A stretch of DNA of 64,000 nucleotides, taken from NCBI GenBank assembly GCA_003194525.1, contig NBIV01000103.1, positions 1 through 64,000 of the forward strand, read 5' to 3'. Numbering within the stretch: the first letter of the stretch is position 1; the number at the start of each line of letters is the position of its first letter. This document shows positions 700-64,000 of the stretch, piece by piece. The stretch comes from Gracilariopsis chorda. Taxonomy: Eukaryota; Rhodophyta; Florideophyceae; Gracilariales; Gracilariaceae. The translations under genes and the position numbers were made by a program. The notes beneath the pieces are model-generated. The model was not told where the DNA came from, did no database searches, and was given only the letters and a program-made list of their open reading frames with translations.

Positions 700-746
700 G
701 TGCACATGACCGTTTTTAATTAATATTTTTCAACGGTCATGTGCAC
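700..746 (+). repeat. 15-bp inverted repeat in Helitron 5' region (copy B)
   Basis: Arms 700-714 (GTGCACATGACCGTT) and 732-746 are perfect reverse complements, separated by a 17-nt AT-rich loop. The structure is kept in copy C at 6838-6883. It sits about 300 bp inside the 5' end and ahead of the gene. Its role is unknown; promoter, origin or Rep-binding structure are possible. Confidence 0.85.
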
Positions 747-6348: not shown

Positions 6349-6508
6349 AGGAACTTGATAGCTTTAAGTAAACCTCTTCTTTTTTCTTTCATTTTTTCTT
6401 TTCTTCTCCCTTCTCCCTCCCCAAAAATACTTGCATTCTACAAACCGACTACCCAAAACACGCTAGCTAAATACTCCTTTCACTCTATTGCTTCTTTTAC
6501 TCCTCAAC

Positions 6509-6523
6509 GCGTGCGAAGCACGC
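6509..6523 (+). repeat. Helitron family 1 3'-terminal hairpin, copy B
   Basis: Same perfect GCGTGC-GAA-GCACGC hairpin as in copies A and C, 14 nt before the unit end at 6537. Confidence 0.88.
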
Positions 6524-6837
6524 AATGGAGCCACTTGTCCCCCCTTACTAAAGACAATGATTGTCCGTCTGTGTGTCTGTGTGTCAGCTAACGCCCACTC
6601 ATTGGCCGCAAAATCGAGAAGGAGGCTGCCAAGTGGAAACGTGGCATTTTATGCGCTCCAAGAGGCATCTTGCACCGCATAATGCGACACGTTGCCACCT
6701 GGCGCCTTTTGCACGCCATCTTGCACCGCATAATGCGACACGTTTCCACCTGGCGCCTTCTGCACGCCACAGTAGCCTAGCCGTTTCACCAAAGTAGCCC
6801 ACCCGTTACACTACAGTAACCGAGCCGTTGCAGTGCA

Positions 6838-6883
6838 GTGCACATGACCGTTTTAATTAATATTTTTCAACGGTCATGTGCAC
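6838..6883 (+). repeat. 15-bp inverted repeat in Helitron 5' region (copy C)
   Basis: Arms 6838-6852 and 6869-6883, identical to those of copy B, with a loop one base shorter (16 nt). Confidence 0.85.
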
Positions 6884-7588
6884 CAATCACATTGCACGCT
6901 ATACAAAAGCGTGCAAAGCACTCGCCCACTGAACACTCGCGTTCTCCTTCGCTGTGGTTAACCTACGGTGTGGGTTCTAGCACTCTGGGCGAGTCAGGAC
7001 GTCTGAAAAAGGTACGCTGGCGGTACCGGCGGGATCTGTTAAGTTTAACTTTCTCACCAAACAACGCGTTCGTCATCCAGATTTAATTGGTTCGGCAACT
7101 ATTTCTGGGTGGCGTTCACGTGAGGTACGATAGCTCCCCACAAAACGTGCATTGCGTGGAAGGAGTAGCCCTTGAAGAGTCTAGAAAGGGACAACAGAGT
7201 AGGAGTCGAGCAACAGCGGCTCTGTCTGGATCTAAGGAACTGTTAAAGGGAAACGGTCTTCGGACTAAAGTACGTCCAGCACAGAGTTGCCTAGCGATTT
7301 TGGGATTGTAAATCTCGCAGTCCTGGCAGACTCTCCAGGCACGACCCCCTGTTTACTCTGTACAGGTCAGTTCCCAATCTAGGCGGTTTCTTTGTGGTCA
7401 AGATATTCTATCTTCGCTGCAACGATCCAAAACTTCGGTGCTAGGTGCATAAAAGGGTTTGGCAGCCCGTAGCACAATTGTTCTCGACTATATCCTTTTT
7501 TTTTTCTTTTTTCTTTCTTTTCTTTTTTTGCTTTGCCAGTCTTTGGACAGTTTTTTCTTTTTTTGTGGTCTGCGTGAGATCTTTTACA

Positions 7589-12480: not shown

Positions 12481-12640
12481 AGGAACTTGATAGCTTTAAG
12501 TAAACCTCTTCTTTTTTCTTTCATTTTTTCTTTTCTTCTCCCTTCTCCCTCCCCAAAAATACTTGCATTCTACAAACCGACTACCCAAAACACGCTAGCT
12601 AAATACTCCTTTCACTCTATTGCTTCTTTTACTCCTCAAC

Positions 12641-12655
12641 GCGTGCGAAGCACGC
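12641..12655 (+). repeat. Helitron family 1 3'-terminal hairpin, copy C
   Basis: Perfect GCGTGC-GAA-GCACGC hairpin, 14 nt before the array's right end. Confidence 0.9.
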
Positions 12656-12934
12656 AATGGAGCCACTTGTATTCTTACGAATTCCATCCCACCAGTAGCC
12701 ATCAGGCCATCATGGCCTGGTTATCGATGATCTCCTTCAGGCTGTCTCACATCGCCCTCAGGGAATCTTTATCCGTATGCGCCTTCCTGAGCTCCAAATG
12801 CTAGCCATGAGCCTCGTACATAGCCTACATGGAAGAAGCTGGTGCACTGATGCCCACCACCAGGCAGCCTTGCTCCGAATTCTAAAAGCAACTGCCATCG
12901 CACCTTCTGGTGACTCGAAGGCGGTAGCAACCAC

Positions 12935-36303: not shown

Positions 36304-36312
36304 CAAGGAAAA

Positions 36313-36344
36313 GCGGCCTTCGGCCGCAGGCGGCGCTTCGCGCC
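36313..36344 (-). repeat. Double 3'-terminal hairpin of element V
   Basis: GCGGCC-TTC-GGCCGC (36313-36327) and GGCGC-TTC-GCGCC (36332-36344), given on the plus strand. Related double hairpins sit next to the CTTG ends of elements Y, W and T (near 42815, 44011-44040 and 50704-50738). The terminus is 9 nt beyond the outer hairpin. Confidence 0.8.
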
Positions 36345-36411
36345 ACAGCCAAAAGTTTGCATAAGATATCCGCACAAATTTTAGTTTACGCATAAACTAA
36401 ACTATGTCAAA

Positions 36412-39400
36412 TTAATGACGCCTCTCTACAAATTTCAACAGCTTCTTGTAGAACAGTTTTTTTGATGCTCTCTGGCACTGGATAGAAATCATGCGCATTT
36501 CGGGACGTCTCGGCTTCATTATGCCGCAATAACACATCAACATATGTTCCCACCCGCGAAAGTACAACATAGACCTGAACCGGAAAAAAGAAGTTACTTT
36601 CGTTTGAAAGTCAAATATCATTTTCTTCAGCTTTTGTCCTTTCCCTTTGTGCACAGTTGCTGCAAATGCCAATCTGATGGAAAACTTTCGACGTTTGATT
36701 TTCACATCTGAAAACTCAAAAACAAAGTCTATGCAGTGCAGTAGAAAGCTTCGCTGAATTTCTCCATTTTCATTAATGCCCGAAAATCGAATCACTTTGC
36801 GATAAACACTGGTAACGATAAACATCTTTCCATTCAGCAAGTGCGGATGAAGTATGTTTCGAGTCATCATAACAAGAACATCCAACTTCAGTTTCAAAGG
36901 GTGGCGCGGGACTCCAGTTGGAGCGTAATTATACGTCGGTTCAGGTCCATTGATACTATTTGTGTGAAATTTTTCACCGGTTGGCCCTTGATTGGGAACG
37001 ATCGTCGTTGCAGACGTCAAGTCAAACATCCTTCCTGGGAAATACTCCAATGCGTTCTGGTTATGTTCCTCCACTAATTGATTTGTTGGCATAACAATCA
37101 ATCGGTTGACCTTGACATATTCTTTCTTTCGTGTTGTAAATCATTTCCAAAGCCACTTTTATGCTTCGTGTACATCTGATGTAGACATGAGTGGAAGCCT
37201 TGCAGATGCTGGAAACGTCCCACGACCAAGACTGAGCAAAACTTTTGCAAAAACTAGATCATCTTGTTGACGAACCTGTTCTGTTAGTCTGAGAACTTTG
37301 ACTCTTCTATCCCAAAGCTCGCAGGAGTACCATGGAAGCCCCCGTAGGAGACTCACTGGAATAATACGAAATTTTTCCATCCTTTTTGGATACTGTTCTC
37401 GTTCTTGGAACCACTGGAAGCGGTTGCATATCGTCGCCTGCCATAACTACCACCATGCCTCCAAAGTCTTTCGTAGATTTTCTTAAGTCCTTCAGTATGG
37501 TGTTTAAAATCTCGAAGAGCATTTTCGGGCACTTTGAAGCCTCATCAGCTACCATCAAAACAGTCTTCCGTATTAGTTCTGCTCTCTGTGATCGTGGTCC
37601 GTACTTGGAAAGTGTGCAACGCTCTCTACTTTGCAAATCTTTGTTTTCATCAACTCCCAATCCAAGCAAACTATGCAAAGTTCTTCCACCTTCATATAAG
37701 GCAGCAGCAATACCTGTTGTGGCTGTCATCTGCACCAATAGGCCTTCGTGCTCAACAATATCTCTCCGCAAAGATAGGAGATAGGTCTTCCCTGTCCCCG
37801 CTAGTTCTTGTAACAAGAAAACGCTTCCGTATGTGTTGAGTCTTTCAGACTCTCCCATTCTCTCTCGGTATTGTATTTCTCTCAGTAGTTTGTCAATACT
37901 TGCTTCTGGCCTTCTTTCAGATCATCATATCGCTCTTTTAACCTTCACCTGGACCTCGAAGAAGAGCTGCGACGTACTTCAGCTTTTTCCTCTGCTAATT
38001 GCAGTTAGCTCTTTCTGAGATGAAGTTTTCATACAGTATGATGAAAGAAGGGATCATTTCTGATAAGCCGAATGCCATGTCTGTCCGAAATCTCAATGAT
38101 TCTTCGAAGTAGTTCTTCTCTTCTTTGTGCTCTGTTTCCCTCGGTTATATCTTCAGTTAGAGCTCGTTCGTGCTTTTCAATCACAGTTTTAGGATTTACC
38201 CCTTGTTGTAAGGAAGTGACGACCAATTAACACAGCTCAGCAGGAGTAGAATGGTATCTTACTTCCTGACCAAAAGCCGTTTCGTACTCTTCACCATAGA
38301 TATATAATCCACGGGCTACTGCCCCTTCTCTATAAGTTGAGTAGGATTCGTTCCCAACACGTTTCAGATCATCAAAGGAGCTGAATGCAGAGTTCATAAG
38401 CAATATTCGAAGACCGAAGAGTTCGGGATTTGTGGGAGAAGCAAATCTAACTCGAGTCACAGTTCGATCATTTTCGGATCGCTGCACGACGTACATTTGT
38501 GGACTTCCTCCATCCCGAGTAGAGTAAGACTCTGGTACAGAGCAGGGTAGCTTATCTTATACACGTACAGTCTTGTAGTATGTCATTTAGTCCAAGTCCA
38601 TGTAACGGGAGGGTCGTTTGAAATATCTTTCCAGCAGGGAAGACTTCAGACGTCTAGGCAGTCTTACGTTTCGAATCAAAACCTGTCCCTCTCCACGGAG
38701 ATGTATGTCAAGTGCCTGTACAGTTGGATTGATGCAAATATGCCTGAACTCAAAGAGAATCCATGCAGCTTCAACCACGCCCACCACTCTCGCTCTCATG
38801 TACGCCCTGATCTCATTTTGAAGCATTTCGCTCTGTGCCCTTGATTGGCTTTCCGTTCAACTTGATACAACCAAATCCCGTTCTTTGGCACTCTTGAAAG
38901 CATACTTCATCAGGTACGCTACAGCACTGCCACCTTGGGTTCTTTCAACATTGACGTGAGCCTTGTACTTCATTGTGAGATCTGGATTGTAGGGAACCAC
39001 TTTCAAATCTTATGTTCTTCTTCTTCGGTAGGTCACTCGGTTTGTGTACCCATTTATCGTTGTTTGGGCCACAATTTCTTGTCGATCATACCCGAAGCAG
39101 CAACTCCCGTCAGAGATACGACCACGGCAATATGGAGAGTGTCTGTGCACATTCAATTTCTTCACCAATTTTCTGAGTTCCTGGTCTTCAGGCGAGTCAC
39201 CCGGAGGCAGTTAGGCTTTGATCGAAGTGTCAATGATCTCAGGTTCTTCAATTACGCCCCCCTCCAAACAAAGAGTAATGTGATGATGTGCAGTAGTTCT
39301 ATCCTGGAACTCAAGCTTGGCGGCAATCCCAATGCATTTCAATCCAAAAAGCTCTTCTGAATTATTCTGTAGATCCTTCATGATTGAATTTGCATACTGG

Positions 39401-41231
39401 TTGTACACTCTTGCAATAAGATCTGGCCTATCAGAAGGACGGCATCTGTCTCCCTGTGGAGAAAATGCTCCGGTGTTTTCATTGTCCATACTAATCCTTT
39501 TCATCTCTTCCCGCCATATGTTCATTGTGACTGCGACGAAAAGCGTCAGGGAGCCCAGGCGAGCTACGATTGCTTGGACATCCAGTCATTTTTGTCTCCA
39601 GTACGCCGGAGAGTTTTTTTTTTATTACCTGGAAGGAACAGTTTATCGGGAGGGCCAAGCTCATCTGTTCCGGTATGGGTTTCAGCCCGCAGCTCCCGTT
39701 CTTCAACCATTCTCACCTGTTTTGTTTCCAAGTAACGAAATCTCAAGTCTTCAATGTTTGTGCTAGTACGAAGCAACAATCGCTGAAGAAGAGTACCAGA
39801 GTTCTTCAGCACATTATCGGTATACAGTCTTCGCTTAGAGTGTTCTGCCCATGTCAGACCCCTTTCGTCTCGGTTGTTCGCATCCATTGATGAAATATAT
39901 GTTGCTGTATCATACGGGGCATGAATCTCACCGTAAGGGTAGAGCAGTAGAAAAGCTCCTTTCTCAGCGTTCATTGAATCAGGCTTGAAACGCTTGTACT
40001 TGACAACTCGACGTCGAATATTAACGGTTGACATGTGATGGAATTCTCTTCCCCCTACCAGCTGGGCAACTGGGGCTTCCGACCTGAACAGTCCACTTGC
40101 CTCTACGACGAAAGCTCTCATTGCAAGAGGTCTGCCTCGGATGTCTTCTGGTAACGGTCTCGCACCGGAGCTCACCTCGTTTTGGGCTTCATGGGCACCT
40201 TTATAATTATGGACAAGTAATCCTTCTTGAATAGCGTTTGCAGAGATGTCCAGAGTAGAATCGTCCGCGTTTGATCTCCTGCGGACACTTTCATCTGGTC
40301 TGAACAACTTTCTATATCTCTGTCGGACAATATCTGGTCTTGGTTGCATGAGATCGTATGAATTTGGAACCAAGTATCGAGTATTCGGGTTAGACACCAT
40401 TCTTCTCGGGAAATAATAATAATAATCTCGTGAATTAAGACTGGGAGGACCTTCCAACCACAAATTGTGTAGCGCACGTCCTTGCCAGGAACAGAAAGAG
40501 ACACATTGCCTTGAAGTCGAAGAAATGATGGTCCTCCACCCCGAACGTACTTTATATCCTTGAATGTGATAACGGTTGCAAATAACACATTTAAGTGTGT
40601 TCATAGCGTTTGAAAAGAACGTAAGCGCTATATGTCTTTAAGTTGCGAATTGATATGCACTCGTCTGAAAGAAACTCCGAGCTACCTGGAGCTTTTATAT
40701 TCACATCATGTTCCTTCAGTCTCTGCATCAAGCAGAAATGCGCCACAATACTTGCACATACGAATACAAAGCTCCCATCCCGAATCTTTCAGAGTACATC
40801 GAGTTGCTCGATGGCCGTTTGCACCGCACGTCCCGCAAAAAGCTTGAAGTGTGCTACTGATTGGTTTTTACTCCGGATATGAAGAGCTCGGACGTGCGAG
40901 GCCTTGACGAATATTTTCTGCCCTTGCATCCCAGACATATTTTGCTCCATAGTGAATGCCTTGGCGAGGTCTCCCAGCGAACTGCACAACCGTTCTATCT
41001 CGTTCCTGTTGAATGCCGGAAGAATGAGAAGAGTTCAAGTAATATCTCTTCAGGGTTATGAGGTTCCATAACATTTTGGGGAAGCTCGGTTCTAGTTCCT
41101 AAGTCTACCTGGGCAAGCTCATCGGTTATGTCTCGATGATGCACGGGCTGTATATTCTCTCTTGGACGACGGCCTGCTCCTGACCGGCGTCCATCAATTT
41201 TTGATGGCGGTCGATGCAACGAAGAGCTCAT
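36412..41231 (-). pseudogene. Helitron family 2 Rep-helicase gene, decayed
   Basis: Gene pieces in several frames on the minus strand. N-terminal part 40604-39564 includes LLYPYGEIHAPYD and a Cys motif (CVICNRYH). The Rep motif is in 39525-39211: LEFQDRTTAHHHITLCLE, so both histidines of the HUH motif are kept. Blocks 38826-38587 and 38496-38227 follow. The Pif1-type helicase starts in 37858-37307 with QELAGTGKTYLL (Walker A), VADEAS (Walker B) and GDDMQPLPVV. The C-terminal part 37101-36412 includes TVHKGKGQKL. The pieces lie in order but are separated by many stops and frame changes, so the gene is dead and older-looking than family 1. Frames at 40995-41231 may be the extreme N-terminus; this is unsure. 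Confidence 0.8.
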
Positions 41232-42373
41232 GTCAGACTGCGGGAACCGAAGAGAGATTGCGATAGGTAGTCATCACTTTTCGATGGAACATGTACCGTC
41301 TCTGCTCCTTAAGTAGAGAACTGGTGTTGCAAAATAGTTTCCCGCCTGACATATACGTATATATATTGTCTTCATTGTCTCAAGATGTTCCTGACATCAG
41401 CAATACCTTGACAGTTTACATACGTAGTACTTTACTAAGTACATATGCATTGCATTCTTATTCGTTCTTAGTTTCAGACGTCAATACATATCGAGTACGA
41501 TTAACCTACGTATGCAACGTATAGTTAGTTCCTATTCTTGTTACAGCGTTCTAAGTTTGTAGAAATGTGTGGCTTAAGTATGCACTACATAGATTAAAAC
41601 CATTTTTGTTAGAAGGGTATACGTTTGCAGTACTGCGCAGCCTACGTATGCACTGCGTAAACTATAATTATTCTTGATAGAAGGGTAAACGTAGGTTGTA
41701 CTATACTTTATTTATTTTTGTTGTTTGAATAGGATACGCTTGTATTTTACCTATTGTCTAGTGTGCTGACGATTATGTACTTAATCTAGGACGTACCCTA
41801 AAGTTGCAGAAAACGTTTCTCCAAGCAGCCAACTACAACTTATTTCACTCTACTTCTTCATTTCAACTATCGTCTAACACCATGGCCGATATGTCCCAAA
41901 GAGAGATTCGCTACCTACAACTATGCCTTTTGCGCGACCGTAAGGATGCTGTTCTACCGCGCTTGGGCACATTATTGGAAAATTTTGCATAATACAGGCT
42001 GCGTTGAAGCACATTGATGTGCACGGTGGCGATGTTAATTGGTTTCTTTGGAAGAGATTTTGTGCTCCATTGGCCCGAAAATCGACACTGTGTACACGTA
42101 ATTGAGAGACTACCACGTGATTGGACACCGCAAGGATTTTCCTGTTCGCTGGCCGTCAGAGATATCCGCGTTTGAGACAGGTTCAACGGGGCTAATAGAA
42201 GTTGAGGCTGTCGAGAGTGACAGATCGTACACGTGCTCGACTGATTCGCGCCAGTAGGGCAAATCCTTTGAGTACCATTGGCTAGTCGTTTGGAGGGAAA
42301 TTAATGTGCGTTTATTGATGTATTCTAAGGGGTCAACTTGCTCGTTGTCAGAGCAATCCATTGGTAGGTTAGA

Positions 42374-42805
42374 CAAGGGTAAGAAGGGCCTTCGGCCCTA
42401 CCATTTTCCTGCAGTTGCAAAGTCTGCATCTTGCCTGCAGGAAAGAGTGGTAGGGCCGCCCTACCACACTTTTCTGCCGTTGTGACGTGCATTTTGCCTG
42501 CAGGAAAGAGTGGTAAGGACGCCCTACCACACTTTTCTGCATTTGTGACGTCTGCATCTCGCCTGCAAGAAAACGTAGTAGGGCCGGAGCTTGAGCGGTC
42601 ACAAACGTGAGAACCAAACGTTTTGGTTGTCCAAAACGTTGGATTATCATTGGCGCAAGTACCGAAAAGTCTCAAAAATTGAACGTGAAACACGATTTTG
42701 GGTGCTGGCGCAGTTTACCCCAATAAAACCAAATCGTGCATTTTACTAAATTTTGAAGGGGTGCAAAGGCCGTTGTCGCACAAATCCTTAGTTAGGTTAG
42801 AGAGA
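42374..42805 (-). mobile_element. Short non-autonomous Helitron, element X (432 bp)
   Basis: 5' end at 42805 reads TCTCTCTAACCTAACTAAGG, similar to that of element V. The 3' end at 42374 has hairpin GGGCC-GAA-GGCCC and ends ...TTACCCTTG. No gene. Most of its 3' half is tandem repeat (42397-42590). Both ends abut neighbouring elements directly. Confidence 0.65.
42397..42590 (-). repeat. 63-65-bp tandem repeats inside element X
   Basis: Units begin GCCTGCAGGAAAGAGTGG at 42433 and 42496 and in diverged form at 42561, with a partial copy before 42433. Each full unit contains a near-palindrome (GTGGTAGGGC / GCCCTACCAC), so every unit can fold into a hairpin. Confidence 0.75.
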
Positions 42806-43501
42806 CAAGAGAAAGCGGCCTTAGGCCGCGGGCGGCGCTGCGCGCCGCTGAATGAAGGTGACTTTGAGGGATCTGCAGGCCGTTTCTGCTTGCTATCGCT
42901 CGCAAATGGCCTGCAAATCAATGAGGGCCACGGCGTCGAGAGAAAATATAGAATAAAGTTTCAATCGAGCGCTAGCGCGTTTCTGCTTGGCGGGAAGTGC
43001 AGTTGTGGATATAGAGTACACTAGATTGTAATTGGCTGGGATTGCCAAACTGACTGCAGTGCCAGCCACTGAGCAGCAGCAGCAGTCAATGTGAATTGTG
43101 CTGCACTGGCGCAGTGCAAGAAAACCAGCCACGTGTCGCGCAAGCCAGCGACTGCTGAGTGGCTGGCACTGCAGTCATTTACTGTACTGCCAGCCACTGA
43201 GCAGCAAGCAGGCAATCAACATGCCGCAGCAGCCAATGCACCCTACGCTTTGCATCTGCTGCTGCTGCTGCTGCTGCTCAACGTTTTAAGTGGTAGGACG
43301 GCATTGCGCAAAATGTGCGTTTTGCATGTGTGTACAGAGGCGTGCAAAGCTCTTTGGTTGCACAACGCCTTCTATCAGTCAACCACACCCCCCTCATACA
43401 CGAACAAATCATTTAGAGTGGGAGATGTTGAGGTAGGTTGGAGTTAGTTAGGTTAAGAGAGAGAGAGAAAGGTTGTCGCACAAATATTTAGTTAGATTAG
43501 A
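42806..43501 (-). mobile_element. Short non-autonomous Helitron, element Y (696 bp)
   Basis: 3' end at 42806 (…CTCTTG) with hairpin GCGGCC-TTA-GGCCGC (42815-42829) and a second hairpin GCGGCGC-TGC-GCGCCGC just inside. The 5' end at 43501 starts TCTAATCTAAC, like those of X and V. An alternative, shorter 5' end near 43433 (TCAACATCTCCC) resembles that of element Z, so the left-over piece could be a separate remnant. It contains a conserved inverted repeat (about 43150-43207) and a CTG run (43255-43279). No gene. Confidence 0.6.
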
Positions 43502-43996
43502 CAAGTAGAAACGGCATTCGGTCTCGGGGAGCGCTGCACGCCACTGAATAGGGTCCCTTTGGCGGATCTGCAAGCCGTTTGCGAGCATTAGCTTGCAAAC
43601 GGCCAGGAGACCAATGAAGGCCGCGGCGCTGAGAGTGTCTTTGAGCGGCTATTGACTGAAATATCTAGTGCAATGTGCAGCTGCACTAGACGTCGAACGA
43701 TCGCGTAGGCCTCGTTGTAAAACCTGCCTGCATCTGAGTGGCTGGGACTTCAGTCATTTTAGAAGTGCTAACCACTCAGCAGCAAGCATGCAATCAACAT
43801 GCACCAGCAACCAATGAACTGTACGCTTTGCTGCTGCTGCTGAGTTTTCTTAATAATAGGGTGGTGTTGTGCCAAATAGAAGTTTTTCATGCGCTTAGAG
43901 GGGCATACAGGGCGGTATATTAGCGGAACGCCTCCAATCACTCAACGACACCCCCTTCACACATGAGCAAATCATTAAGAGTGGGGGATGTTGAGA
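43502..43996 (-). mobile_element. Short non-autonomous Helitron, element Z (495 bp)
   Basis: 5' end at 43996 reads TCTCAACATCCCCCAC and is preceded by A (43997) and T (43998). The 3' end at 43502 ends in CTTG. It shares the 5' subterminal inverted repeat with elements Y, W and T. The 3' hairpins are degraded. No gene. Confidence 0.6.
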
Positions 43997-44112
43997 TACA
44001 AGAGGAGACAGCCTTCGGCCACGATCGGCGCTGCGCGCCGCGGTGGGGGAGTGATAAACAGCGTTAAGAAGAAACAAATGGTGGGGAAAACAAAAGCAGA
44101 AAGGCAAGTAGT

Positions 44113-47100
44113 TTAATTCAATGAATGAAGAACGCAAGAAATATGAATACGGTTGTGGAGGGATGCAGAACTGAATGGCTTCAGGCAGCACTGGTTTGGA
44201 AATGGCCACAGGCATGGTATGAATCGTGCGCGCATTCCCAGATATAAGCTGCGGGTTATGCAGGAGCAGCACATGGTTGTTCCTTTGAATCCACGACAAT
44301 GCGACATACAACGGTCCGGTGCAGAGGAAGTTGGATCGCACATCCACACCAAGCCATCCAAGTTCTTTCCTTGTCCTTTGTGGACAGTAGCTGCAAACGC
44401 GAGACGAATGGGGAACTGCCTTCGAATCATGCAAATGTATGCGAAAGAAAACTTGAAGTCGATACGATGCAGGAGCTATCGATCCAGCACCTGTCCGTTC
44501 TCGTCAAATCAAACCACCTGCCTCGTAGACTGATGGGCGCGCACGACTACGAACAGCTTTCCATTGACTAAAGCAGGATGCAGCACGTTTTGAATGACCA
44601 TAACTGGCTCACCAATCTTCAGGTCCAAGTTATGAGGTGGTACTCCAGTAGGTGTATACTGATATGCAAAATCGGGAAGAAAAGTATTGGTGACGTCGGG
44701 CTCTGGGATCTGTCCACAATCGGGCTGCACGGTTGTCGCTGACGGAAGAGTGAAGCACTCAGCAGGAAACAGATCGAGCGCTGCAGCATTATGCTCGTCG
44801 ACCAACTGGTTTGTGGACGAAATGAGCATTTTTGCTGAGATCCACATCCTCCTTGCGTCGTGGTGTGAGCCGCTTCCACAAGTTTAAGTAAGCAATTTGC
44901 ATGCCACTGGTAGATCTGAGCGGTAGTGGAGCGTTGTTGGATATTGTGTTCCGTGCAATAGAACGTAAAAACGACACAAATGCTGGATCATCGGCTTGGC
45001 GTACTTGTTCGGTGAGATACAGAACTTGAACCGAGCAGAATGTCCACAGATAACTCTTCCACGGCAATTCGTTGAGAAACTTTGTGTACACTCGTCTCAT
45101 ATTTCCACTTTTCTTGTCCTCCACGTAGACCTGCAGCACCACTGGAAGCAGCTGGGAGTAGTCGCCGGATAGAACGATGGTCAAGACCGCAAACGGAGGC
45201 GGTTTTTCCATTCCACTGCAGCAAAGAACTTTGAGCAACGCATCCATGAGTTCAAAGAGCTTTCGTGAGAGCATGGACGCCTCATCCAAGACGAACGGTT
45301 GCATTTCGCGTAGCAGTTCTGCACGTTGAGATCGGGGACCGTACTTTGACAAAGTGGCTGTAGTGCTGCTTGTACTGTCCTTGTCAGCTACACTCAGTCC
45401 AAACAGGTTTTGCAGTGTGCAGCCACCTTCGTACAACGATGCTGCAATGCCTGTTGTAGCAGTCATTTCGGTGAGAATTCCTTCCGACTCAGTGATACCG
45501 CAAAGCAGGTTGAGCACGTACGTCTCTCCGATTCCTGTGGATCCTTGCACAAGGAACACGTTTCTAGGAGTGCTTGTTCTCTTCTGCAGCGCTTGCCTTT
45601 GTTGCAATGAGACAATGCTGGTGTCAATGACTTGTCTTTGGCGAGGTTTTAAGGTGGCGTACCTTGACTGCAACGATGACGCAATTCTCAGCACGCACGC
45701 GTCTCGAGCTGTGGTAGCTCGATTCATCTCAGTGAATTCTGCCTTATCTTGCTGTAGATGTTTTGAGAAGAAGCTGTGATCGCGTAGCAGTTTTCCATCG
45801 CCCCGGTCTGAGATCTCCACCACAGGTCGATTCATTTCTTGCTTTTGTTGCTGCCCATCTCCTGTATGTATGTCGTTACATAGCGCCTCCCATTTTCGAC
45901 ACCCGTTCTCTCTGCGCGTCTGCACCTTATTGGTATACTTTGAAAACCAGAAGTCATAGCTCAGAAGAGGTGCTGTAGATCTGCAACGCTTCTTGAAAAG
46001 CAGTATGAAACTCGGTTCCGTCCGCGAGCAGTCCGCTTGCAATCGTCATTTCACGATAAGTATCATAGTGCTGTTCGTTGAAAGTCTTTTCGTCTTCATA
46101 AGAGCTCGAGCCGTGATTCATGAGCAGCAAGCGCAGAGCAAAGAGCTCAATGTCGGACGGTGAAACACCTCTGATCCTTGCGACGCACTGCTCGTCTTCT
46201 GTGCGCTCTACCACGTACATGGGCGGATCGCAGTCGTCTGTGGGCACCTGAGTGCTGTTTCCGTCGTATCGGTTAAGCACACAGGCGGAAAGCGTGCGAT
46301 ACAATCACACTTTTTCAAAGTACGAAAGGTAGTCGGGGTTTGCATAAGCTTCGGGCCTTGCAAAGTATCTGTCCAACGTAGACGGCTGCGATGTGGAATG
46401 GATCTGATTTGAACCTTTCAGCCGAAACATGTGCTCTCCTTCCAGTGAATGGCAAGTCGCTGTACTTTAGGTATGATGTGAACATGTCCAAACTCGAAAA
46501 TTCTCCAAGCTGCGGTGACGGCGCCCACCACGCGCGATGGCATGTATGCACAAATGTCATTCTGCGCCTGTGGCTCTTGTTACTGCTCATTCTGCGTGCC
46601 TGTCTCATTAGCAACACTCACATTGAGCACCACCTCCTGAGCTTTTAACTGCTTAAACGCGTACTTCATTAGTTAAGCCACTGCACCCCCTCCTTGCGGT
46701 CGTTCTACGTTGATATGGGAACAGTACTTCTTGGTCATAGTTGGGTTGTAGGGCACAATCTTGAGGTCTTCTTGCCTTCTTCTGCGGTAGATCACGCGAT
46801 TCGTGCCTTCTTCAATTTACGTCTCTGGCACAATCATGTTGCTGTCGTATCCAAACTTGCACCGCCCAGCGCGACTCCGGCTGTAGAGGGAGTGGTGGTG
46901 CCTGTGAATGGAACAAATGGGGCCAGGCAATGCTTTTTCTTCTCTTATAAGGGGAAGTTTTGCACGATTCATCTCGTCGATCACATCAACGTCTTCAATT
47001 ACGCCTTTTTCGAGCCACACGAGCATGTGGTGATGAGGCACATTGTGCTATTGAAACTCGAGCTTGATGCAAGCCTCAGGCACTTCATCCAAAGATTTGT

Positions 47101-48598
47101 TCCGATTTCTTCTCCAATTTCTTCATGAAGTCGTTTGCGTACGGTTTGTAAACCATTGCGATCAGATCCGGTCGTTCAAACGATTAACGGCGGTTATTCT
47201 GTGCAATTAATGGGTTACGATTGCTGGTCTCCATCCTAAGGCACTGGATGTCCTCTTGCCAGATATTCATGGTGATTGTAATGAAAAGAGAAGGCAGTCT
47301 TCTCTGCGCTACGATTGCCTTACATCCATGCGCTTGTTCTTCCAGTACGCTGCCGAATTGAGCGAGTCCTCGGGCAGAAATATGCGTCCCATTTATGCGA
47401 ACTGTGATGGTGACACATGAGCTGTCTGTTGGTCTGCTTGCTAGGTGGCTTGCTCTTGTACAATACTTGCCTTTTGTTCTCTCTCCAGGCAACGCAGTCG
47501 CATGTATTCAATGTTTGTTTGGATGCGAAGCATCCACATCTGCATCAACGGTCCACTAGTCATGAGGATGTTGTCTGAGTACAGATGTCACTTCGCGTTC
47601 TCAGCTTAGGTGACCTTTCGGAGCTTCCAATCGTTGACTCTGAGACCTGAGATTTGCTGTGTAGAGTTTCTTGTATCCAGAAACAGGTAGATGTCAAATG
47701 GCTCGTGCTGATCACCGTACGGGTAGAGAAGAGGGAAAGTGCCCTTTTCTGCAAGTTTAGATGCGGGTTTTAGAAGCCGGTACCACACTGGCGCAGTATG
47801 TGCGGCATTTACAGTCGCCACTGCTCTGGAAGCAGCAGCAGTGGTCACTGCAGCGTGCTCTTCTATTACGGTTCCTTTTACCAAGCGCGGTACTTGGGAC
47901 TCCACTCGACACAGGCCAGTAGGATCAACCACGAGCGTTCTCATCATGGTTTCCTCCCCACCAAGAACATCTTCAGGGAGAGGACCTGCAAATGCATTAA
48001 GAGCACTGAATCTGGCAGTTCGGTTTCATTCGTATCCACGTACGAGTACTCCTTGTTCTGCCGCATGCACGCTGATGTCCACGGCAGTCTCCGCATTCTG
48101 TTGTTGTTGTTGCGTGCTTAGCATGGAGCGGTTCTGCTCACGCACCACGTCTGGCTTGGGCTGGAGCACATCGTACAACTTTAACACGATGTATCCTACG
48201 TTAATGTCTTGACTGAACGCACGCATACTAGCACGAGCATAGTGCGATGATTACAATGAAGGCGGACTGGTACCCTACAGAAAGCTGTATCGCGTGTTGT
48301 TCTGGTTCTGCGTAGGGAGAGCGAGAGCTGCGTTGCCCTCAAGTCCGAGAAAGGAGGGACCGCCTACCGTCACATGCGAAATGTCCATGATCGCTTGTGT
48401 CGTCGCTAAGAGTGTATTAAAGTTGAGTAAATGGGAGTGAAATAGTCTCAGGCTATGAAGACTGCAAACGAACTGGCTGCTATGCCTTCTGCGAAACTTG
48501 ACGCCCCATCCCGACATTCTTCTCATTCCATAGCACACTCCGGTGGTCTCTTTGCCAATCAAAACACAAACGCAATATTTGCAGCTATGAGTTTTCAA
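44113..48598 (-). pseudogene. Helitron family 3 Rep-helicase gene, decayed
   Basis: Minus-strand pieces in order: 48598-48275 (contains GGPSFLGLEGN), 48226-48026, 47947-47606 (LLYPYGDQHEPFD), 47041-46817 with the HUH motif MPHHHMLVWLEKG, 46304-45954, the helicase 46042-44789, then 44847-44509 and 44430-44113 (ATVHKGQGKNLDGL). The helicase part is open for 417 codons, but its Walker A reads GSTGIGET where GxxGxGKT is required, so the ATP-binding Lys is Glu. Walker B (VLDEAS) and GDYSQLLPVV are kept. Many other interruptions exist. It is a different family from element V (the proteins align but are clearly diverged). Confidence 0.8.
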
Positions 48599-48811
48599 TG
48601 TTTGGCCCGCGGTGGAAAGCGTCTCAAAGTCTGGAACACTTGCACGGATGGCTGGATCATTCCAAACTTCAGCTGCTACGGTATTCCACTCATACTACAT
48701 GCGATACAGTCCTCCAACCAGACGTCCAACAGACTGCATAATGGTCGTATCACGCTGCTGCTGTGGCTGCCGTGGTTACTGTGGCTGCTGCGGCTACTGT
48801 TGCTGCTGCGG

Positions 48812-49356
48812 CTACTTTGGCTGCTCATGAGGTGGCTGTAAAGGAGCAGGAGCCATCTCGTCTTCTTCCACGTCCATGGAAACAGCCTTCTGCTTTCGTT
48901 CGTCAGCTTGCCGCAGAACAGGCTGCTGCGGCGGGTGTGAGGTAGCAGGAGTGATATTATCCTGTTCCACTTCTATCGTAAAGGGCATCTGTTCTTCTTC
49001 TGGTCCAGCTTGTGTCAGAGCAGGCTGCTGTGGTGGCGGTGGCTGTGAGGGAGAAGAAGTGATCTCATCTTCTTCCAATTCTATTGCAACCGGCATCTGT
49101 TCTGCATGAATCCATGGGAGAGACAGATGCATCGGAGGCGGAGGAATGTGAGAAAGAAGACCTCTCACGAACTCGATAAATCCAGGTGTCGGAGAGGACG
49201 TTGGTAGCGCTTTGGGAATGGAACCACCCCCCCCCCCCCAACCACTTTTGCACTGTCCGTCGCTGCGACTGACGTAGGTGCAGGAGTAGTTTTGTCTTCT
49301 TCCATGGCTTGAACAATAATTCCTTGCACGTGCGCATCGCTCTCATTAACCTCCAC
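48812..49356 (-). repeat. Acidic ~32-residue coding repeats in element W
   Basis: On the minus strand three units follow each other in one frame (49168-48812): EQMPVAIELEEDEI, EQMPFTIEVEQDNI and KQKAVSMDVEEDEM, each followed by a Pro/Gln-rich stretch. A fourth, GIIVQAMEEDKT, lies upstream in another frame (49356-49165). The core is a hydrophobic strand followed by acidic residues, resembling SUMO-interacting motifs. The repeats lie 5' of the Rep gene and may be its N-terminus or a separate frame. Confidence 0.6.
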
Positions 49357-49477
49357 TTCATCTGGAACGGAAGGAACTGGTAATCCTTGAGGTCTTCCAG
49401 CCCCTTCGCGTGCTCCACCGCTGTTGACCCAACGACCTCCAGCGTTTTACCTTGCGCTGCCTGCGTTCACCCTGGAT

Positions 49478-49603
49478 CCTCAAAACTTGGCTCTCACACT
49501 TCCCAAATTGGGCCTTAGTCCTCCAGAATTTGTTCTCGTGCCTCCGAAAATGGCTCTAGAACCTCCACAATTCGCTCTTGCACCTCCAGAGGTATATTGG
49601 ACC
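49478..49603. repeat. 21-bp minisatellite, six units
   Basis: Units of exactly 21 bp start at 49478, 49499, 49520, 49541, 49562 and 49583, typically beginning CCTCC (e.g. CCTCCACAATTCGCTCTTGCA). The period is a multiple of three, so both strands stay open: PP-x-F-x-L-x heptads on plus, Gly-Gly-rich on minus. It is within element W's 5' region; coding value unproven. Confidence 0.8.
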
Positions 49604-49779
49604 CCATCAGAGCTCGTACGTCGCCCTCCTCTCTTCATTTCAATTAACTTAAGTAAGAAACAACAATTCCATTTTTCTAAAACCCTAAAACATTTGCCAG
49701 AGTTCCAGAAAAGATTCCAATATAACACAAAGTTGAAAGTGAAAAAACGGTTGCAGTTTGTTGCTTTGTACCCACTGGG

Positions 49780-50640
49780 CTCAGTTGCATGAGCAATTAA
49801 AAATATTTGCTACAAGACTTATATCTTTTCGATGCAGTCGTGCGCAGCATACGGACTCTCGACACGCTCATGTTGGATTATGACGCACGGAGTGTGCCCA
49901 GCCCCTTTTCAAACCGTTTGATGTTTAACCCGCGTCCTGTTGTAAGGATTGGTTTGCCTTTACTCACACACCAAAGTGTGCTTTCCGGCCCCAAAAAGTT
50001 ACGACACGGCGACCACCCCGTACTCTGCACAGCAAGCTGGTATTAGATCCCGGAAACTCTCAGACTTCCTAATTGCCGTCAAACTACCAGTATATGACAG
50101 AGGAGCCCGTGACCTTTCCTAGATCTGTGGTACCCAGTGGGTTACTGTTGTGGCGACCTGCACACGAACTCGGCCTTGCCTAGGTCCCTGGCCAGCAACA
50201 GTGCCCAAAGTAGCAAAAGGTTACGAAACTACGCTATCGGCCAAGACTGAAATTGGAGGTCAAAGTAGTGTTTAGGTTCAGCAAGGGAGATGCATTTGGC
50301 ACTGCACCAGTGCAGTATATAAGCTCTGTGCAATGTGCTGCGCTGGCGCAGTGCAAGAGGACAGCCCCGTGTCGCGCAAGCTAGCTACTTCTGAGTGGCT
50401 AGCACTGCAGTCATTTACGGTAGTGCTAGCCACTGAGCAGCAGCAGTCAACATACAGCAGCAGCCAATTAGCTTTGAGCTTTGCGGCTGCTGTTGATGCT
50501 GGTGCTGGTGCTGGTGCTGCCGCTGCTGCCGCTGCTGCTGCTCGCGAATGTTTTGAATTGAAGGGAGGCGTTGCACCAAGAGGTGTTTTTTTTCACGCTT
50601 TGAAGGGGGTGTGCGTGCGTGTTTATTGGGTCAACGCTTC
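49780..50640 (-). repeat. Family 3 Helitron 5' region, copy in element W
   Basis: About 0.85 kb, highly similar in direct orientation to 51603-52445. It includes the inverted repeat around 50387-50446 (TGGCTAGCACTGCAG with its complement) and a GCTGGT/GCTGCC triplet tract (50493-50545). It is interpreted as the 5' regulatory part of the family. Confidence 0.8.
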
Positions 50641-50791
50641 GGTTCAATCAACGGCTATGGCCTCATCCACTTGAAAATTTATAGAAAAGAGAGACAAGAG
50701 GAAGCAGCCTTCGGCCGCGGGCGGCGCTGCGCTCCGCTGTGGAGGAGTGATAGACAGCATTAAGAAGAAAAAAAGGGTGGAGAAAGCCAAA

Positions 50792-51600
50792 TCAGAAATG
50801 CAAGTAGTTTAATTCAATGAATGAAGAACGCAAGAAATATGAATACGGTTGTGGAGGGATGCAGAACTGAATGGCTTCAGGCAGCACTGGGTTGGAAATG
50901 GCCACAGGCATGGTATGAATTGTCCGCGCCTTCCCAGATATAAGCTGCAGGTCATGCAGGAGCAACAAATGGTCGTTCCTTTGAACCCGCGACAATGCGA
51001 CATACAACGGTCCGGTACAGAAGAAGTTGGATCGCAACATCCACAACCAAGCAATCCAAGTTCTTTCCTTGTCTTTTGTGAACGGTAGCTGCAAATGCGA
51101 GACGAATGGGGAACTGCCTTCGAATCATGCAAATGTATGCGAAAGAAAACTTGAATTCAATACGATGCAGAAGCTGTCGATCCAGCACCTGTCCGTTCTC
51201 GTCAAATCCAACCACCTGCCTCGTAGACTGATGGGCGCGCACGACTACGAACAGCTTTTCATTGACTAAAGCAGGATGCAGCACGTTTTGAATGACCATA
51301 ATTGGCACACAAATCTTCAGATTAAGTTATGGGGCGGTTCTCTAGTAGGCGCATACTGATATGCAAACTCGGGAACGATAGTACTCGCAATGTAAGACTC
51401 TGGGTTCTGTCCACAATCGGGCTGCAAGGTTGTCGCTCAACGAAGATTCAAGCACTCAGCAGGAAACAGATCGAGCGCTGCCGCATTATGTTCGTCGACC
51501 AAGTGGTCTGTGGACGCAATGAGCATTTTGCTTAGATCCACATCATCCTTGCGTCGTGTTGTGAGACACTTTCATAGGAATTGTTAAGCGGTTTGCACCT
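50792..51600 (-). pseudogene. C-terminal remnant of family 3 helicase (element T)
   Basis: Matches the C-terminal helicase part of element W (44113-44890) closely in order and sequence, e.g. FPIRLAFAATVHKRQGKNLD and the preceding PIMVIQNVLHPALVNEKLF. Broken by several frame changes. Confidence 0.75.
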
Positions 51601-51602
51601 AA

Positions 51603-52445
51603 TTGGCCTAGCTTCATGAGCAATTTAAAATAGTTCTGCAAGACTTATGTTTACCCGATGCATTCGTGCGCAGCACAGGGACTATCGACACACTCCTGTT
51701 GGATTATGACGCACGGAGTGTGCCCAGCCCATTTTCGAACCGTTTGATATTTAACCCCCGTCCTGTTGTAAGGATTGTTCTGCCTTTACTCACATACTAA
51801 AGTGTGCTTTCTGGCCCCAAAAAGTTACGACACGGCGGCCGCCCCATACCCTGCACAGCAAGCTGGTATTAGATCCCGGAAACTCTCAGACTTCCTAATT
51901 GCCGTCAAACTACCATTATATGACAGAGGAGCCCGTGACCTTTCCTAGATCTGTGGTACCCAGTGGGTTACTGTTGTGGCGACCTGCACACGAACTCGGC
52001 CTTGCCTAGGTCCCTGGCCAGCAACAGTGCCCAAAGTAGCAAAAGGTTACGAAACTACGCTATCGGCCAAGCCTGAAATTGGAGGTCAAAGTAGTGGTTA
52101 TGTTCAGCAAGCGAGATGCATTTGGCACTGCACCAGTACAGTATATGAGCTCTGTGCAATGTGCTGCACTGGCACAGTGCAAAAGGCCAGCCACGTGTCG
52201 TGCAAGCCAGGTACTGCTGAGTGGCTGGCATTGCAGTCATTTACTGTAGTTCCAGCCAGTGAGCAGCAGCGGCAGTCAAGATACAGCAGCAGCCAATTAG
52301 CTTTGAGCTTTCCTGCTGCTGGTGATGCTGCTGCTGGTGAAGTTTTTGAATGGGAGGGAGGCTTTGCGCCAAGAGAGGTTTTGCACGCGGTGAAGGGGGC
52401 GTGCGCCCGTTTTTAATAACGCAACGCCTCCCATCAATCAACAAC
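51603..52445 (-). repeat. Family 3 Helitron 5' region, copy in element T
   Basis: Direct repeat of 49780-50640 with scattered substitutions and small indels. It keeps the subterminal inverted repeat (about 52216-52262). Confidence 0.8.
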
Positions 52446-52493
52446 ACCCCCCTCATACATAAACAAACCATTATAGTACGGGGCGTGTTATGA

Positions 52494-53398: not shown

Positions 53399-54540
53399 AT
53401 GTTTATTCGTTCTAGTCAGCTGGTTGCAGGGTCCTCAGCTCCTTCAAGTAGAAGAAGCTTAACGTCCTCTTCATCGGCGCAGGTAAGGTACGATGGGCGC
53501 AGGAAAAAGAAACGCAGCAGAGCTGAGAAACTCCACGAATTCTTTGAATTCGTTCCTGGGACTAGCAAGAGTGGAAATCCGGGTTTTGGTTCCAAATCTC
53601 CTGAGGAAGATTGTTAGTATACGGTAAACGGATCAGACAATAGAATCAGTCGTTCTCATATCATTCTATGTCCTGGATTTCCGTTTCGTGTTCGGGAATT
53701 TTGGTGGTCTTGTAGCAAGGACAAGAACAAACCTCCACTTCTCAGATACCCTCTTTCAAATATGACGGTCTCGCAGGCAAAGAATTATGTTGCCAACGCG
53801 TCATCACGCATGATGGACATGACTGATGCAGATGTCATTAATCCCATTCCTTGGGATATGGATCCGTTGTATGCTAAATTTGCTGAGCATCAAGCCCGGA
53901 TTGCCCTAAATTGCCTAACGCAAAAACACTCTGAAGTGGAACAGAGGCTGGCCAGTTTGCTCTTGGCCAGATTGTTTGTGAACGAAACCTTGGCCTTTGC
54001 GTTCCTTAATAAGAAAAAAGACCAAGACAGGCACTTTGCGGAGTAGTCGAAGTGCATTAGAAGTTGGATTAATGTTCCTTCTGGATATCAGCTGCGAGGA
54101 CTCATTGCAGAGTATCACTCAACTATCAAAAAACCAGTTGTTAGGGAGCTTTGCACCCTGCTTGAGGAGGGTTTTGCGACATTGATGTTTGAATCTCTGG
54201 AGGACATCACAGGTTTTATTATGACTAACATACTCGTAAGAGTTACAGGAGCTTCTCGAGCTACCCTTAGAACGTTCTTTTTGGAGACTATCTACTCAGG
54301 AACAGATAAGAACAATGCAGGTTATTACGTCAGAGTGGCTGAGACCGCCATCCGAAATTCGATAGGATTTGACAAAGTAGCTGGAATTGTCACAGACAAC
54401 ATGGTATCTGTCAAACGCGCAAGGGAAAAACTCATGGGCTCCCATCCGAGATTTGTGGCATCGGCTGAGGCATTAGGCTGAGTTGGAGGCATGGTAAAAG
54501 AATTTAAGCACGTGGCAAGAAAAGTGAAAAGTTCACAGAC
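53399..54540 (+). pseudogene. hAT-type (DUF659) transposase, dead and truncated
   Basis: A plain cut-and-paste DNA transposon gene. One reading frame runs from 53399 to 54481, interrupted by in-frame TAG at 53615 and 54044. Blocks typical of hAT/DUF659 transposases are INVPSGYQLRGLIAEYHSTIKKPVV, LMFESLEDITG, FFLETIYSGT and FDKVAGIVTDNM (the catalytic-Asp region). After 54481 the match goes on weakly (GGMVKEFKHVARKV) and is lost where the Helitron fragment begins near 54545. The C-terminal dimerisation domain is missing. No terminal inverted repeats were identified. Confidence 0.72.
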
Positions 54541-54544
54541 AACA

Positions 54545-55493
54545 AAAGCAAGAAAAAGAAAAGAAGAAAAAAAGAAGAAAGTATGTAGTCGGTAACAATT
54601 GTGCTACGGGCTTCCAAACCCTTTTATGCACCTAGCACCGAAGTTTAGGATCTTTGCAACGAAGGTAAAATACCTTGACCACAAAGAAACCGCCTAGATT
54701 GAGCACTAACCTGTACAGAGTAAACAGGGGGCCATGCCTGGAACGTCTGCCACGACTGCGAGATTTACAATCCCAAATTTGCTCGGCATCTCTGTGCTGG
54801 ACTTATTTTAGTCCGAAGACCTTTTCTCTTTTACCGTTCCTTAGATCGAGACAGAGCCACTTTTGCTCTACTCGTACTCTGTTGTCCCCTTTCTAGACTC
54901 TTGAAGGGCTATTCCTTCCGCGCAGAGCAAGTTTGATGGGGAGGCATCGTATCTCACGTGAACGCCACCAAGAAATATTTGCCGAACCGATTAAATTTAG
55001 ATGGTGAACGCGTTATTCGCAGAGAAAGTTACACTTAGCAGAACCCACCAGTACCGCCAGCGTAACTTTTTCAGACGTCCTGACTCGCCCAGAGCGCTAG
55101 AATCCATGCCTGTACGTTAACCACGGCGAAGGAGAACGCAAGCGCTCAGTGGGCGTGTGCATTGCACACTTTTGTATAGCGTGCAATGCCATTGGTGCAC
55201 AACACCTTTGAAAAATGGTAATTAAAACGGTCATGTGCACCGCACTGCAACGGTTCAGTTACTGTAGTGTAACGGGTGGGCTACTTTAGTCAAACTGCTA
55301 GGCTACTGTGGCGTGCAAATGGCGCCAGGTTGAAACGTGTTGCATTATGTCGTGCAAGATGGCTCATGGAGCGCATAAAGTTACGCGTTTTCACTTTGCG
55401 GACTCCTTGCCAATTTTCCAGCAAATGAATGGCCGTAGAGCAACACGCGGACAGATAGACACACAAACTTCCGCTTTGATATATGTGGGGGGA
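54545..55493 (-). mobile_element. Diverged 5' fragment of Helitron family 1
   Basis: On the minus strand the sequence starts TCCCCCCACATA at 55493, like the family-1 5' end. It continues through the 5' region and T-rich leader of copies B and C (compare 399-1400), ending near 54545 before the gene. It is clearly more diverged than B is from C and has only one copy of the 52-bp repeat. The cut end adjoins the dead hAT gene. Confidence 0.8.
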
Positions 55494-61329: not shown

Positions 61330-64000
61330 GAAGGGTGTTTAGCGACTGGTGACGGGAACTGAGGTGAAACCAGAAACGGATGAAGAGATGCTGAAGTTCG
61401 AGACAATGGTTGAGATTGCATTGGCGTGCATTCTGCTTTCAGATCGCGAATCATGTGTCGCTGCAGTTGTGACCATGCACGATCCATCTGCAACATGGGC
61501 AAAACTGAAATCTGACTTTGAGACCCATGACCACTCGGACAAGTCACTCATTACCTGTACGCAGAGAGAGAGAACTTTACAGTAACCTGGCACAGACGCC
61601 TTGGACATGCCAGTGCAGACTACATCAGAAGAACTCTAAGGCTAGTCAGCGGTGTGAGACCAGAACCTATCCAGGAAATCGACCATTGTGAACCTTGTAA
61701 GAAGGGAAAAGCTAGACGAGAGCTACACCATCCGACCCCTGCGTCAAGCCAACAAATTGAGGTGCTCGACCTCGTACACTCGGACGTTATGGGTTCGATA
61801 AACGTCGAGAGTCTCAGTGAGTCGAATTATATCGTGACAGCATACGATGAAAAGAGTTGCATGTCTTCCGTACGGTTGATGAGAAACCGTAGCGAAGTGG
61901 AAACCATTTTGAAAGCATGAGCACGATGTTTGAAACGCAGTCTGGTCGTCAGGTCAAGCGTTTTAGGTTTAATAATGCAAAGGAATATCTATCGAATTCG
62001 CTGAAGACCTGGTTCAAGAGCAAAGGAGTAGTCCTTGAACCTTCCCTTCCATACAGTCCGGAATCTAGTGGAAAGGCCGAGCCCCTCAACCGAACTCTGA
62101 ACGACAAAGGGCGGACCATGCTAAGGACAATTGATGGCACACCTCGCTGCCTTCAAGTGTGGGCTGAACCAGTCAATACTGCGAGCTACCTACGAAACCG
62201 TACATTCGTTCACAGAGAAGACGAACCAGATATGACTCCGTTCCAGGCATTCACGGGACAGAAGGCTGACATTGATCATGTTAGGCCATTTGGTGCACAG
62301 TATTACGTACAAATTTCTCGCAAACGACTCCAACGCAGCGCGAAGTACGACAGCAGAACTATCAAAGGAATATTGTTGGGTTACGAAAGCGGGAAATGTT
62401 ACAAGGTGTACATCCCCAACGAGAACGGTATGATGTTTTTAAAGGTCTTAGACGTCAAAGAGACCTTCATAGGCTGGAACCAACAATACGCCGCCACAGC
62501 AGAAGAAGTGGACCTGGCTGGGGTCCAGCATGAAGAAGTCATAGAAGATTTGCAGGTGCAAAATGTGGCCCTGGATGAAGAAGATCAATTGGCCGCAGTA
62601 CATGTGAAGAATGAGGAGGTACCAGTCGATGGGCAAGAAGACCTTCCCTACGACCCCAAACTGGTGAATAACTACCCTGCGGAGCCCAGGAGGTCTACTA
62701 GAACGCGTCAGAAGCCACAGCGATTCTCACCACACACAGTGCTAGCCATTCTAACTGGTGATACGCTGGGAAACTGCGATAATGACGATCCTCTGACTGT
62801 ACCTGATGCTGTACGGGGTACTGAAGCCCAGCAGTGGAAGGCTGAAATGCGCGAAAAGATGACACACATAGAAACCAGATCTGTTTGGACACTCGTACAA
62901 CCTTCACGCGACTGCAAGCCTATTAGCAACAGATGCAGTTTTTGAATAAGCGCGACGAAAGTGGCAATCTTGAACGTTATCGCGCGCTACTGGTAGCTAG
63001 AGGATTCCCCCAGCGGTCTGGCCTGGACTACGAAGAGCTTTTTTCTCCTGTCGTCAAGTATAGCACAGTTCGCACCTTTATGGCGTTGATGGAAAACAAA
63101 GATTTGAACAGCATTCAGTTCGACATACGCACTGCATTTTTTATGGCGGACTCCACGAAGATCTCTAAATGAAGCAACCTGAGAGCTCTGTGGCCCAGGC
63201 AAAGCCAATCTGTGTGTACAAACTGGACAAGGCTATCTACGGCCTTAAGAAGGCATGAAGAGCCTGGAGGACTAAGTTCAAGAAAATCATGAAGAAGATT
63301 GTCTGCTCTGTATCCGAAAAAGACCTTGAACTGTTCTTTCTTGGACGAGGCGCACACAAGATCATTATCCTCGTGTACGTAGACGACGGAATCGTCATCG
63401 TCAAGGATAAGGACAACCTCTACCAATTTTGTAAGAAAATGGAAGAGCATGTCAACATTCGAATCTACGATGAACCTAGAAAGTTCCTAGGCATGTTTAT
63501 TGAGTGCAGTAAGGACCAGAAGGCACTCAAGCTTCATAAAGCACCGATGATTTCTCGTCTTGGTATTCAGTTCGAGGTTGAACGTGCTGCTGCTGTGCCT
63601 ATACCACTACAAGCTGCGGTCATCAAGGACGAAGAAAATGAAGAACGAAACCCCGTGGCACTACCGTTCAGAGATCTGGTTGGTTCGTTGATGCATATTT
63701 GCAACAATGTACGCCGTGACATAGCCTTTGCAGTCTCTTACCTTGCCGGTTTTATGCAAAGCTACACTCGTTCATACTGAAAAGCAGCGAAGCATGTGCT
63801 GAAGTACCTACTCAGTACACAGAATACCGCTTTGATATACTGTGAAAACAATCATGATGAACTTGTTGCAATATCTGATGCGGACTTTGCAGGAGACACG
63901 ATCGCAAGTCCACCAGCGGGTTTGTGTTCCAATATGAAGGTGCTGCAATATCTTGGCGTAGCAAGAAGCAAACAGTAGTTGCCCAATCAAAACTGGAAGT
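61330..64000 (+). mobile_element. Ty1/copia-type LTR retrotransposon fossil (runs off the window)
   Basis: Parts in the order typical of Ty1/copia: a gag-like region (about 61350-61590), pre-integrase and integrase (about 61590-62450), reverse transcriptase (about 62830-63500) and the beginning of RNase H (about 63780 to the edge). Integrase before reverse transcriptase separates copia from gypsy. The gag part is short, and no LTR is seen within the window. The element is broken, with roughly half a dozen interruptions. Age appears moderate, since protein blocks are still easy to read. Confidence 0.85.

Follow-up and report, generated by a model that had tools for sequence, protein, structure and literature searches.

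A mixed block of six adjoining Helitrons in Gracilariopsis chorda, probably formed by serial insertion at resident ends

Introduction

Canonical Helitron1-like elements encode a RepHel protein (Rep plus a PIF1-type helicase), start with a 5' TC, end with a 3' CTRR that follows a hairpin, and insert between A and T without duplication of the target. Helentron or Helitron2 elements are characterized by an endonuclease domain, a T-T or T-A target and inverted repeats at their termini.

The closest described case of abutting Helitrons comes from maize, where two Helitrons of different content adjoin and individual lines carry none, one or both of them (2008, PMC2267711). The pair was explained by consecutive insertions at one of the two edges of the resident element, the 5' edge with its A^T or the 3' edge with its G^T. 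Maize lines with a single Helitron keep the one on the 5' side, as that report describes them, which leans towards insertion at the 3' edge or towards later loss. Maize Helitrons with multiple termini are described as arising from nested ones (PMC3288121). Tandem Helitrons in bats and plants are cited in PMC5876387 and PMC2267711, the latter presenting the bat cases as suggested tandem repeats. Among fungi, three tandem Helitrons were reported in Metarhizium acridum (Chellapan et al. 2016, PMC5148889). According to the same paper, FoHeli4 sits 2 bp upstream of the partial 5' end of another element, and there are FoHelis with multiple 5' termini, explained by self-insertion followed by transposition from the leftmost terminus. 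HELPO2 of Pleurotus ostreatus has the 3' end CTTG and inserts with AT specificity (PMC4289320). Helraiser strongly prefers AT, with 46 of 1751 insertions elsewhere (PMC4778049).

Head-to-tail joints, consecutive insertion of unlike Helitrons, tandem groups of three and multiple 5' termini are thus already published. The literature searched, the coverage of which was partial, most subscription papers lying outside it, yielded no description of six Helitrons in one mixed block.

Results

Layout and joints of the block

The window, a stretch of 64 kb, contains six Helitron units that adjoin on the minus strand in a single orientation and occupy about 16 kb (36304-52493). In 5' to 3' order these are T, W, Z, Y, X and V. 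A previous sequence-only reading had proposed the six segments, their coordinates, their common orientation and a CTTG end for each, as well as an A as outermost 5' flank and a T as outermost 3' flank; the sequence bears out all of these. No target duplication was seen by eye at the outer flanks of the block, and an A...T flank pair has a probability of 0.064 by chance. That reading also had each next unit start with TC. At four of the five joints (T|W, Z|Y, Y|X and X|V) this TC follows CTTG with no spare base; W|Z reads CTTG-TA-TC. The TA dinucleotide between W and Z (43997-43998, minus strand) may be a remnant of the original target.

The CTTGTC motif by itself is not significant. The minus strand of the block has five copies of it and the two strands of the window together have 31 (14 + 17), and the case for the joints therefore rests on the homology of the ends. 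All six units as delimited start with TC, although the starts of Z and X are ambiguous by 2 to 4 nt and that of W is placed by adjacency. At the extreme 5' end of W (50694), Z (43996) and X (42805), TC is repeated two or three times, which makes three of the seven listed starts against a background of 7.7%.

3' ends and hairpins

The 3' ends were compared by leave-one-out profile searches of the whole window, in which each end was sought with the other five. Those of T (E = 9.3e-9), W (8.4e-7), Z (5.4e-6), Y (6.6e-11) and V (2.5e-8) were recovered, that is five of six with E-values from 5.4e-6 to 6.6e-11, and every recovered match stops on the G of CTTG. The top match outside the array had an E-value of 0.25. 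The 3' end of X was not recovered in the window by the ends of the other five units. Five of the six 3' ends thus belong to one family that ends at CTTG, while X has a different hairpin of its own ahead of this motif.

The shared 3' ends extend over about 45 bp and contain two short hairpins, which are decayed in Z. Over the five ends, 90.8% of the cells of the twin hairpins pair, compared with 25-59% when the structure is slid by 1 to 3 columns. The shuffle control was uninformative (500 of 500 for every measure). Covariation gives the hairpins no support: no pair changed on both sides over the five ends, and a slide of +3 equals or exceeds the hairpin structure (score 0.215 versus 0.200; double changes one versus none). 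Compared with shuffles, folding energies gave z values of -3.8 for Y, -2.2 for X, -1.7 for V, -0.8 for W, -0.3 for T and +1.0 for Z; by this measure z falls below -2 only for Y, X and a second Helitron of the window, named E and described below. Mismatches plus wobbles, counted by eye from the alignment, amount to 2 in T, 4 in W, 7 in Z, 0 in Y and 1 in V, and their totals are consistent with the pairing analysis. Hairpin decay along the array is monotonic in neither direction.

5' ends and the chimeric unit Y

Each comparison of 5' ends was scored against 2000 random windows. One type of end, type A, is common to X, V and a stub in Y; the numbers of random windows that scored as well were 0 for X and the stub, 1 for X and V, and 25 for V and the stub. 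The other, type B, unites the ends of T and Z with an internal site of Y, and here 0, 0 and 1 random windows scored as well. The two types are not wholly clean, as a short part of the Y stub resembles the internal type-B end too, to a degree reached by 9 of 2000 random windows. The 5' end of W matches neither type clearly: 30, 41 and 83 random windows scored as well in comparisons with the three type-B ends, and 1933 and 1562 in those with X and V. The W start at 50694 is supported by its adjacency to T only. X may start at 42805 or at 42801. Z may start at 43996 or at 43994, and the alignment with Y allows both; position 43994 is preceded by C.

The 696-bp unit Y (42806-43501, minus strand) is chimeric. 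It is composed of a type-A stub from 43501 to about 43432, a type-B 5' end at about 43431, a Z-like body and a twin-hairpin 3' end. The first residues align with X (Y1-30 with X5-34 at 90%), whereas the alignments of Y with Z and T begin no further out than about 43435 (Y70-347 with Z2-263; Y89-412 with T22-341). Judging from these alignments, Y carries the 5' ends of two families and a single 3' end. The previous reading would be refuted by element ends that lie off the CTTG|TC points, and this holds in part for Y, in which family alignment locates a 5' end some 70 bp from the start of the unit. Nesting of Y inside X was also considered and is less likely, since a type-A 5' end starts again directly after Y.

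Unit bodies and genes

Two units have the remains of RepHel genes. V (6070 bp, 36304-42373, minus strand) has a type-A 5' end and a 3' flank of T, and matches the Pfam families Helitron_like_N (E = 1.1e-11) and PIF1 (E = 1.2e-30) as well as Helraiser (E = 3.3e-4 and 4.8e-13). W (6696 bp, 43999-50694, minus strand) matches PIF1 (E = 1.1e-25). Its Rep side is seen through a colinear protein similarity to V that includes the Rep segment of the latter; the Rep-side piece at 46820-47047 had no match in the PDB. The V and W proteins are colinear with 32-63% identity by segment, whereas their DNA shares only short patches at 66-70%, plus one patch of 33 bp at 85%, and the two units thus represent different families. 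Both genes are broken. The V frame has 11 stops and 4 frame changes in the 1316 codons followed; for W the counts are 15 and 5, over 1497 codons, so that the density of stops is about equal; some of these stops and frame changes could be introns or sequence errors. Neither the hairpin decay, which is not monotonic, nor the similar decay of the V and W frames points to an order of insertion.

The other four units carry no RepHel gene. T (1799 bp, 50695-52493, minus strand) is non-autonomous, with a type-B 5' end flanked by A and a twin-hairpin CTTG 3' end. It resembles W in three stretches (T155-902 with W185-930 at 91%; T897-1799 with W5794-6696 at 89.5%; T52-168 with W43-162 at 76%) and is a W-like unit without about 4.9 kb of the middle. 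Z (495 bp, 43502-43996, minus strand, the start being 43996 or 43994) is non-autonomous with a type-B 5' end, and aligns with Y in two segments (Z2-263 with Y70-347 at 72%; Z362-495 with Y560-696 at 75%); Z and Y form one non-autonomous family. X (432 bp, 42374-42805, minus strand) is non-autonomous, with a type-A 5' end and its own 3' hairpin before CTTG. Tandem repeats of 63 bp, in 2.8 copies, are located beside this hairpin (42405-42586).

The proposed Helitron identity and mixed families hold up. Four units had been taken to lack complete genes, and no open reading frame of at least 150 residues lies wholly within T, Z, Y or X. V and W had been taken as near full length and of different families; the comparisons of DNA and protein agree with the latter, but both units are decayed by stops and frame changes.

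Pfam scans of eight open reading frames of the array, a subset of the total, gave no endonuclease family. All six units and E end with CTTG instead of a strict CTRR, a variant recorded for HELPO2, with which they share this 3' end; the word "tandem" is absent from the main text of that paper (PMC4289320).

A companion array of Helitron E

A second array, located at positions 1-12669 of the plus strand, comprises two complete 6.1-kb copies of E and the 3' tail of a third (1-398) that runs off the window. Copy B (399-6537, 6139 bp) starts with TCCCCCC and ends with CCACTTG, and adjoins copy C (6538-12669, 6132 bp), which has a 3' flank of T. The copies end at 398, 6537 and 12669, and the first two of these positions are joints that read CCACTTG|TCCCCCC. 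Direct 3'-to-5' joining, the mark of a tandem head-to-tail array, is thus observed at both joints of the E array as at four of five in the mixed block, and the E array is independent evidence that CTTG and TC adjoin at such joints. Over 6143 columns copies B and C are 99.6% alike, with 10 substitutions and 15 single gap columns between them. As most of these differences are single-base gaps, they may be residual sequencing errors, and the frame counts given for the window are to be read accordingly; the E reading frame is also interrupted as written.

The Rep and helicase segments of E match Helraiser (E = 3.4e-61 and 1.2e-34, respectively), which places E with the canonical Helitrons. In contrast to the mixed block, the E array may have formed as a concatemer. 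It resembles the tandem Helitrons cited for bats and plants, whereas the mixed block, while sharing their perfect head-to-tail joints, does not (PMC5876387, PMC2267711).

Other features of the window and searches for relatives

An E-like fragment is present on the minus strand at 54454-55493. Its similarity to E, within part of the 5' kilobase of the latter, is 85-86%, and 74% in the outer 105 columns. Its start was placed by TCCCCCC at 55493 and is flanked by G, not A, so that A^T is not strict in this window. The fragment ends against an open reading frame (54047-54478, plus strand) with a DUF659 match below the curated cut-off. Long open reading frames between 20377 and 35454 match a VWA domain, a PHO4 phosphate transporter, an MFS transporter and a C-type lectin domain in Pfam; one frame of 757 residues in this region has no Pfam match. 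A retroelement fragment at 61893-62942 (plus strand), which is probably Copia-like, matches a retroviral polymerase SH3-like domain. Scans of the window for tRNAs and Rfam families gave no match.

Relatives were sought in viral contigs with the W helicase, the E Rep and the exact 3'-end pattern, and in GTDB contigs with the exact pattern and the E helicase. None was confirmed; these are viral and prokaryotic collections, and their silence says little. Four viral loci with helicase-like matches, obtained with an alignment of three helicase proteins, were dropped; the E Rep finds nothing convincing there (best E = 1.4).

Discussion

The block at 36304-52493 is probably the product of six stepwise insertions, in which Helitrons of at least two RepHel families and their non-autonomous derivatives were added at the ends of resident elements, at either edge. 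Serial insertion and mobilization as a composite had both been offered for this block, and the former is the better supported; the units are too divergent for a single tandem amplification, since V and W share only short patches of DNA and 32-63% protein identity. Serial insertion is further favoured by the homology of the 3' ends as far as CTTG, the recurrence of the two 5' types, the outer flanks and the TA, the CTTG|TC joints of the independent E array, the maize precedent (PMC2267711) and the strong AT preference of Helraiser (PMC4778049).

Serial insertion could proceed by canonical steps throughout. Insertion at A^T would leave A|TC at the 5' edge of the newcomer, which is again A^T, and a resident Helitron would thus stay a legal landing site. 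A further newcomer would land at the 5' edge of its neighbour, or 2 bp before it in the case of W, with the host A and the T of the resident providing the A^T. The array would grow at its 5' edge, all six insertions being canonical. The original target would have read CTGAAATATAGCC, and a pre-insertion sequence CTGAAA-TA-TAGCC would hold all six insertions at A^T targets only. The TA between W and Z would fit two A^T insertions 2 bp apart in a AAATATAG target, provided that Z starts at 43996. With this start the canonical inner flanks are kept, a T after W and an A before Z; a start at 43994 would weaken the scheme.

Growth at the 3' edge, where a newcomer inserts at the G^T formed by the CTTG of the resident and the following T, is possible rather than probable, as a variant within serial insertion whose odds are not to be added to it. 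It fits every joint equally well, and W|Z would then be one canonical insertion 2 bp downstream of W. The maize lines in which the 5'-side Helitron stands alone (PMC2267711) also agree with it, as does the E-like fragment with a 5' flank of G. It needs, however, four of the five later insertions to have occurred at G^T, which is not among the most prominent Helraiser alternatives named (TT, AC and AA; PMC4778049). Transposition of the whole block, or a large part of it, as one composite would start at the 5' end of T and read through the inner CTTG ends to that of V. The outer A and T flanks agree with such an event, terminators can be bypassed, as shown by the capture of flanking DNA in about 11.7% of events with intact Helraiser (PMC4778049), and Y combines two families of 5' end with one 3' end. 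We nevertheless consider it quite unlikely: no second copy of the block was seen in the 64-kb window, and transposition would have to run past five inner 3' ends. Among these, the hairpins of Y and X still surpass shuffles in folding (z = -3.8 and -2.2), whereas those of T, W and Z do not. Only Y looks like a small product of composite mobilization. Formation of the units in place, by rolling-circle concatemers or by unequal crossing-over at shared ends, is very improbable for the mixed block. Such a process is likely for the E array, with copies 99.6% alike, and crossing-over could take place within the roughly 45 bp that the 3' ends have in common, but a concatemer would not give six units of mixed families with different bodies, and crossing-over at shared ends reshuffles units and cannot create them.

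Serial insertion at plain A^T sites does not account for the single orientation of the block. The A^T target is palindromic and allows either orientation, and the common orientation hints at a strand-specific action of the transposase on the resident end, rather than the use of any A^T. Six of six units lying one way has a probability of 1 in 32 by chance, and is a hint only, the block having been chosen partly for that feature. Resident Helitron ends might be a preferred landing site that imposes polarity, the transposase engaging the resident terminus on one strand and joining the newcomer to it; we put this forward as a rather doubtful proposal.

The maize pair shares with this locus a 3' end directly followed by the next TC, a G/T joint and units of different content. 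It differs in having two units, the first of which ends in CTAG, and in being backed by strain data, compared with six units ending in CTTG, a possible TA remnant and a single sequence here (PMC2267711). The fungal Helitrons are similar in having inserted at a resident 5' end or slightly ahead of it, and in stacked 5' termini like those of Y. They are grouped with Helitron2, however, and the preferred site of FoHeli1 and FoHeli2 lies between TNAT and A (PMC5148889). The array termini, TC...CTTG, are unlike those described for FoHelis, and the best-preserved Rep of the window, that of E, is Helraiser-like.

As pairs and groups of three abutting Helitrons are already known, the block is a longer instance of them and not a novel type of element. 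It adds an extended case in which Helitrons of mixed families abut, with what may be a TA target remnant inside and a predicted empty site. If resident ends do impose polarity as proposed, Helitrons of different families would build arrays in which all units point one way, and this 64-kb window would hold one mixed and one uniform example. The block sharpens the question that the maize case, as reported, had left (PMC2267711), namely at which edge such arrays grow, the 5' one with its A^T or the 3' one with its G^T, and why their units share one orientation.
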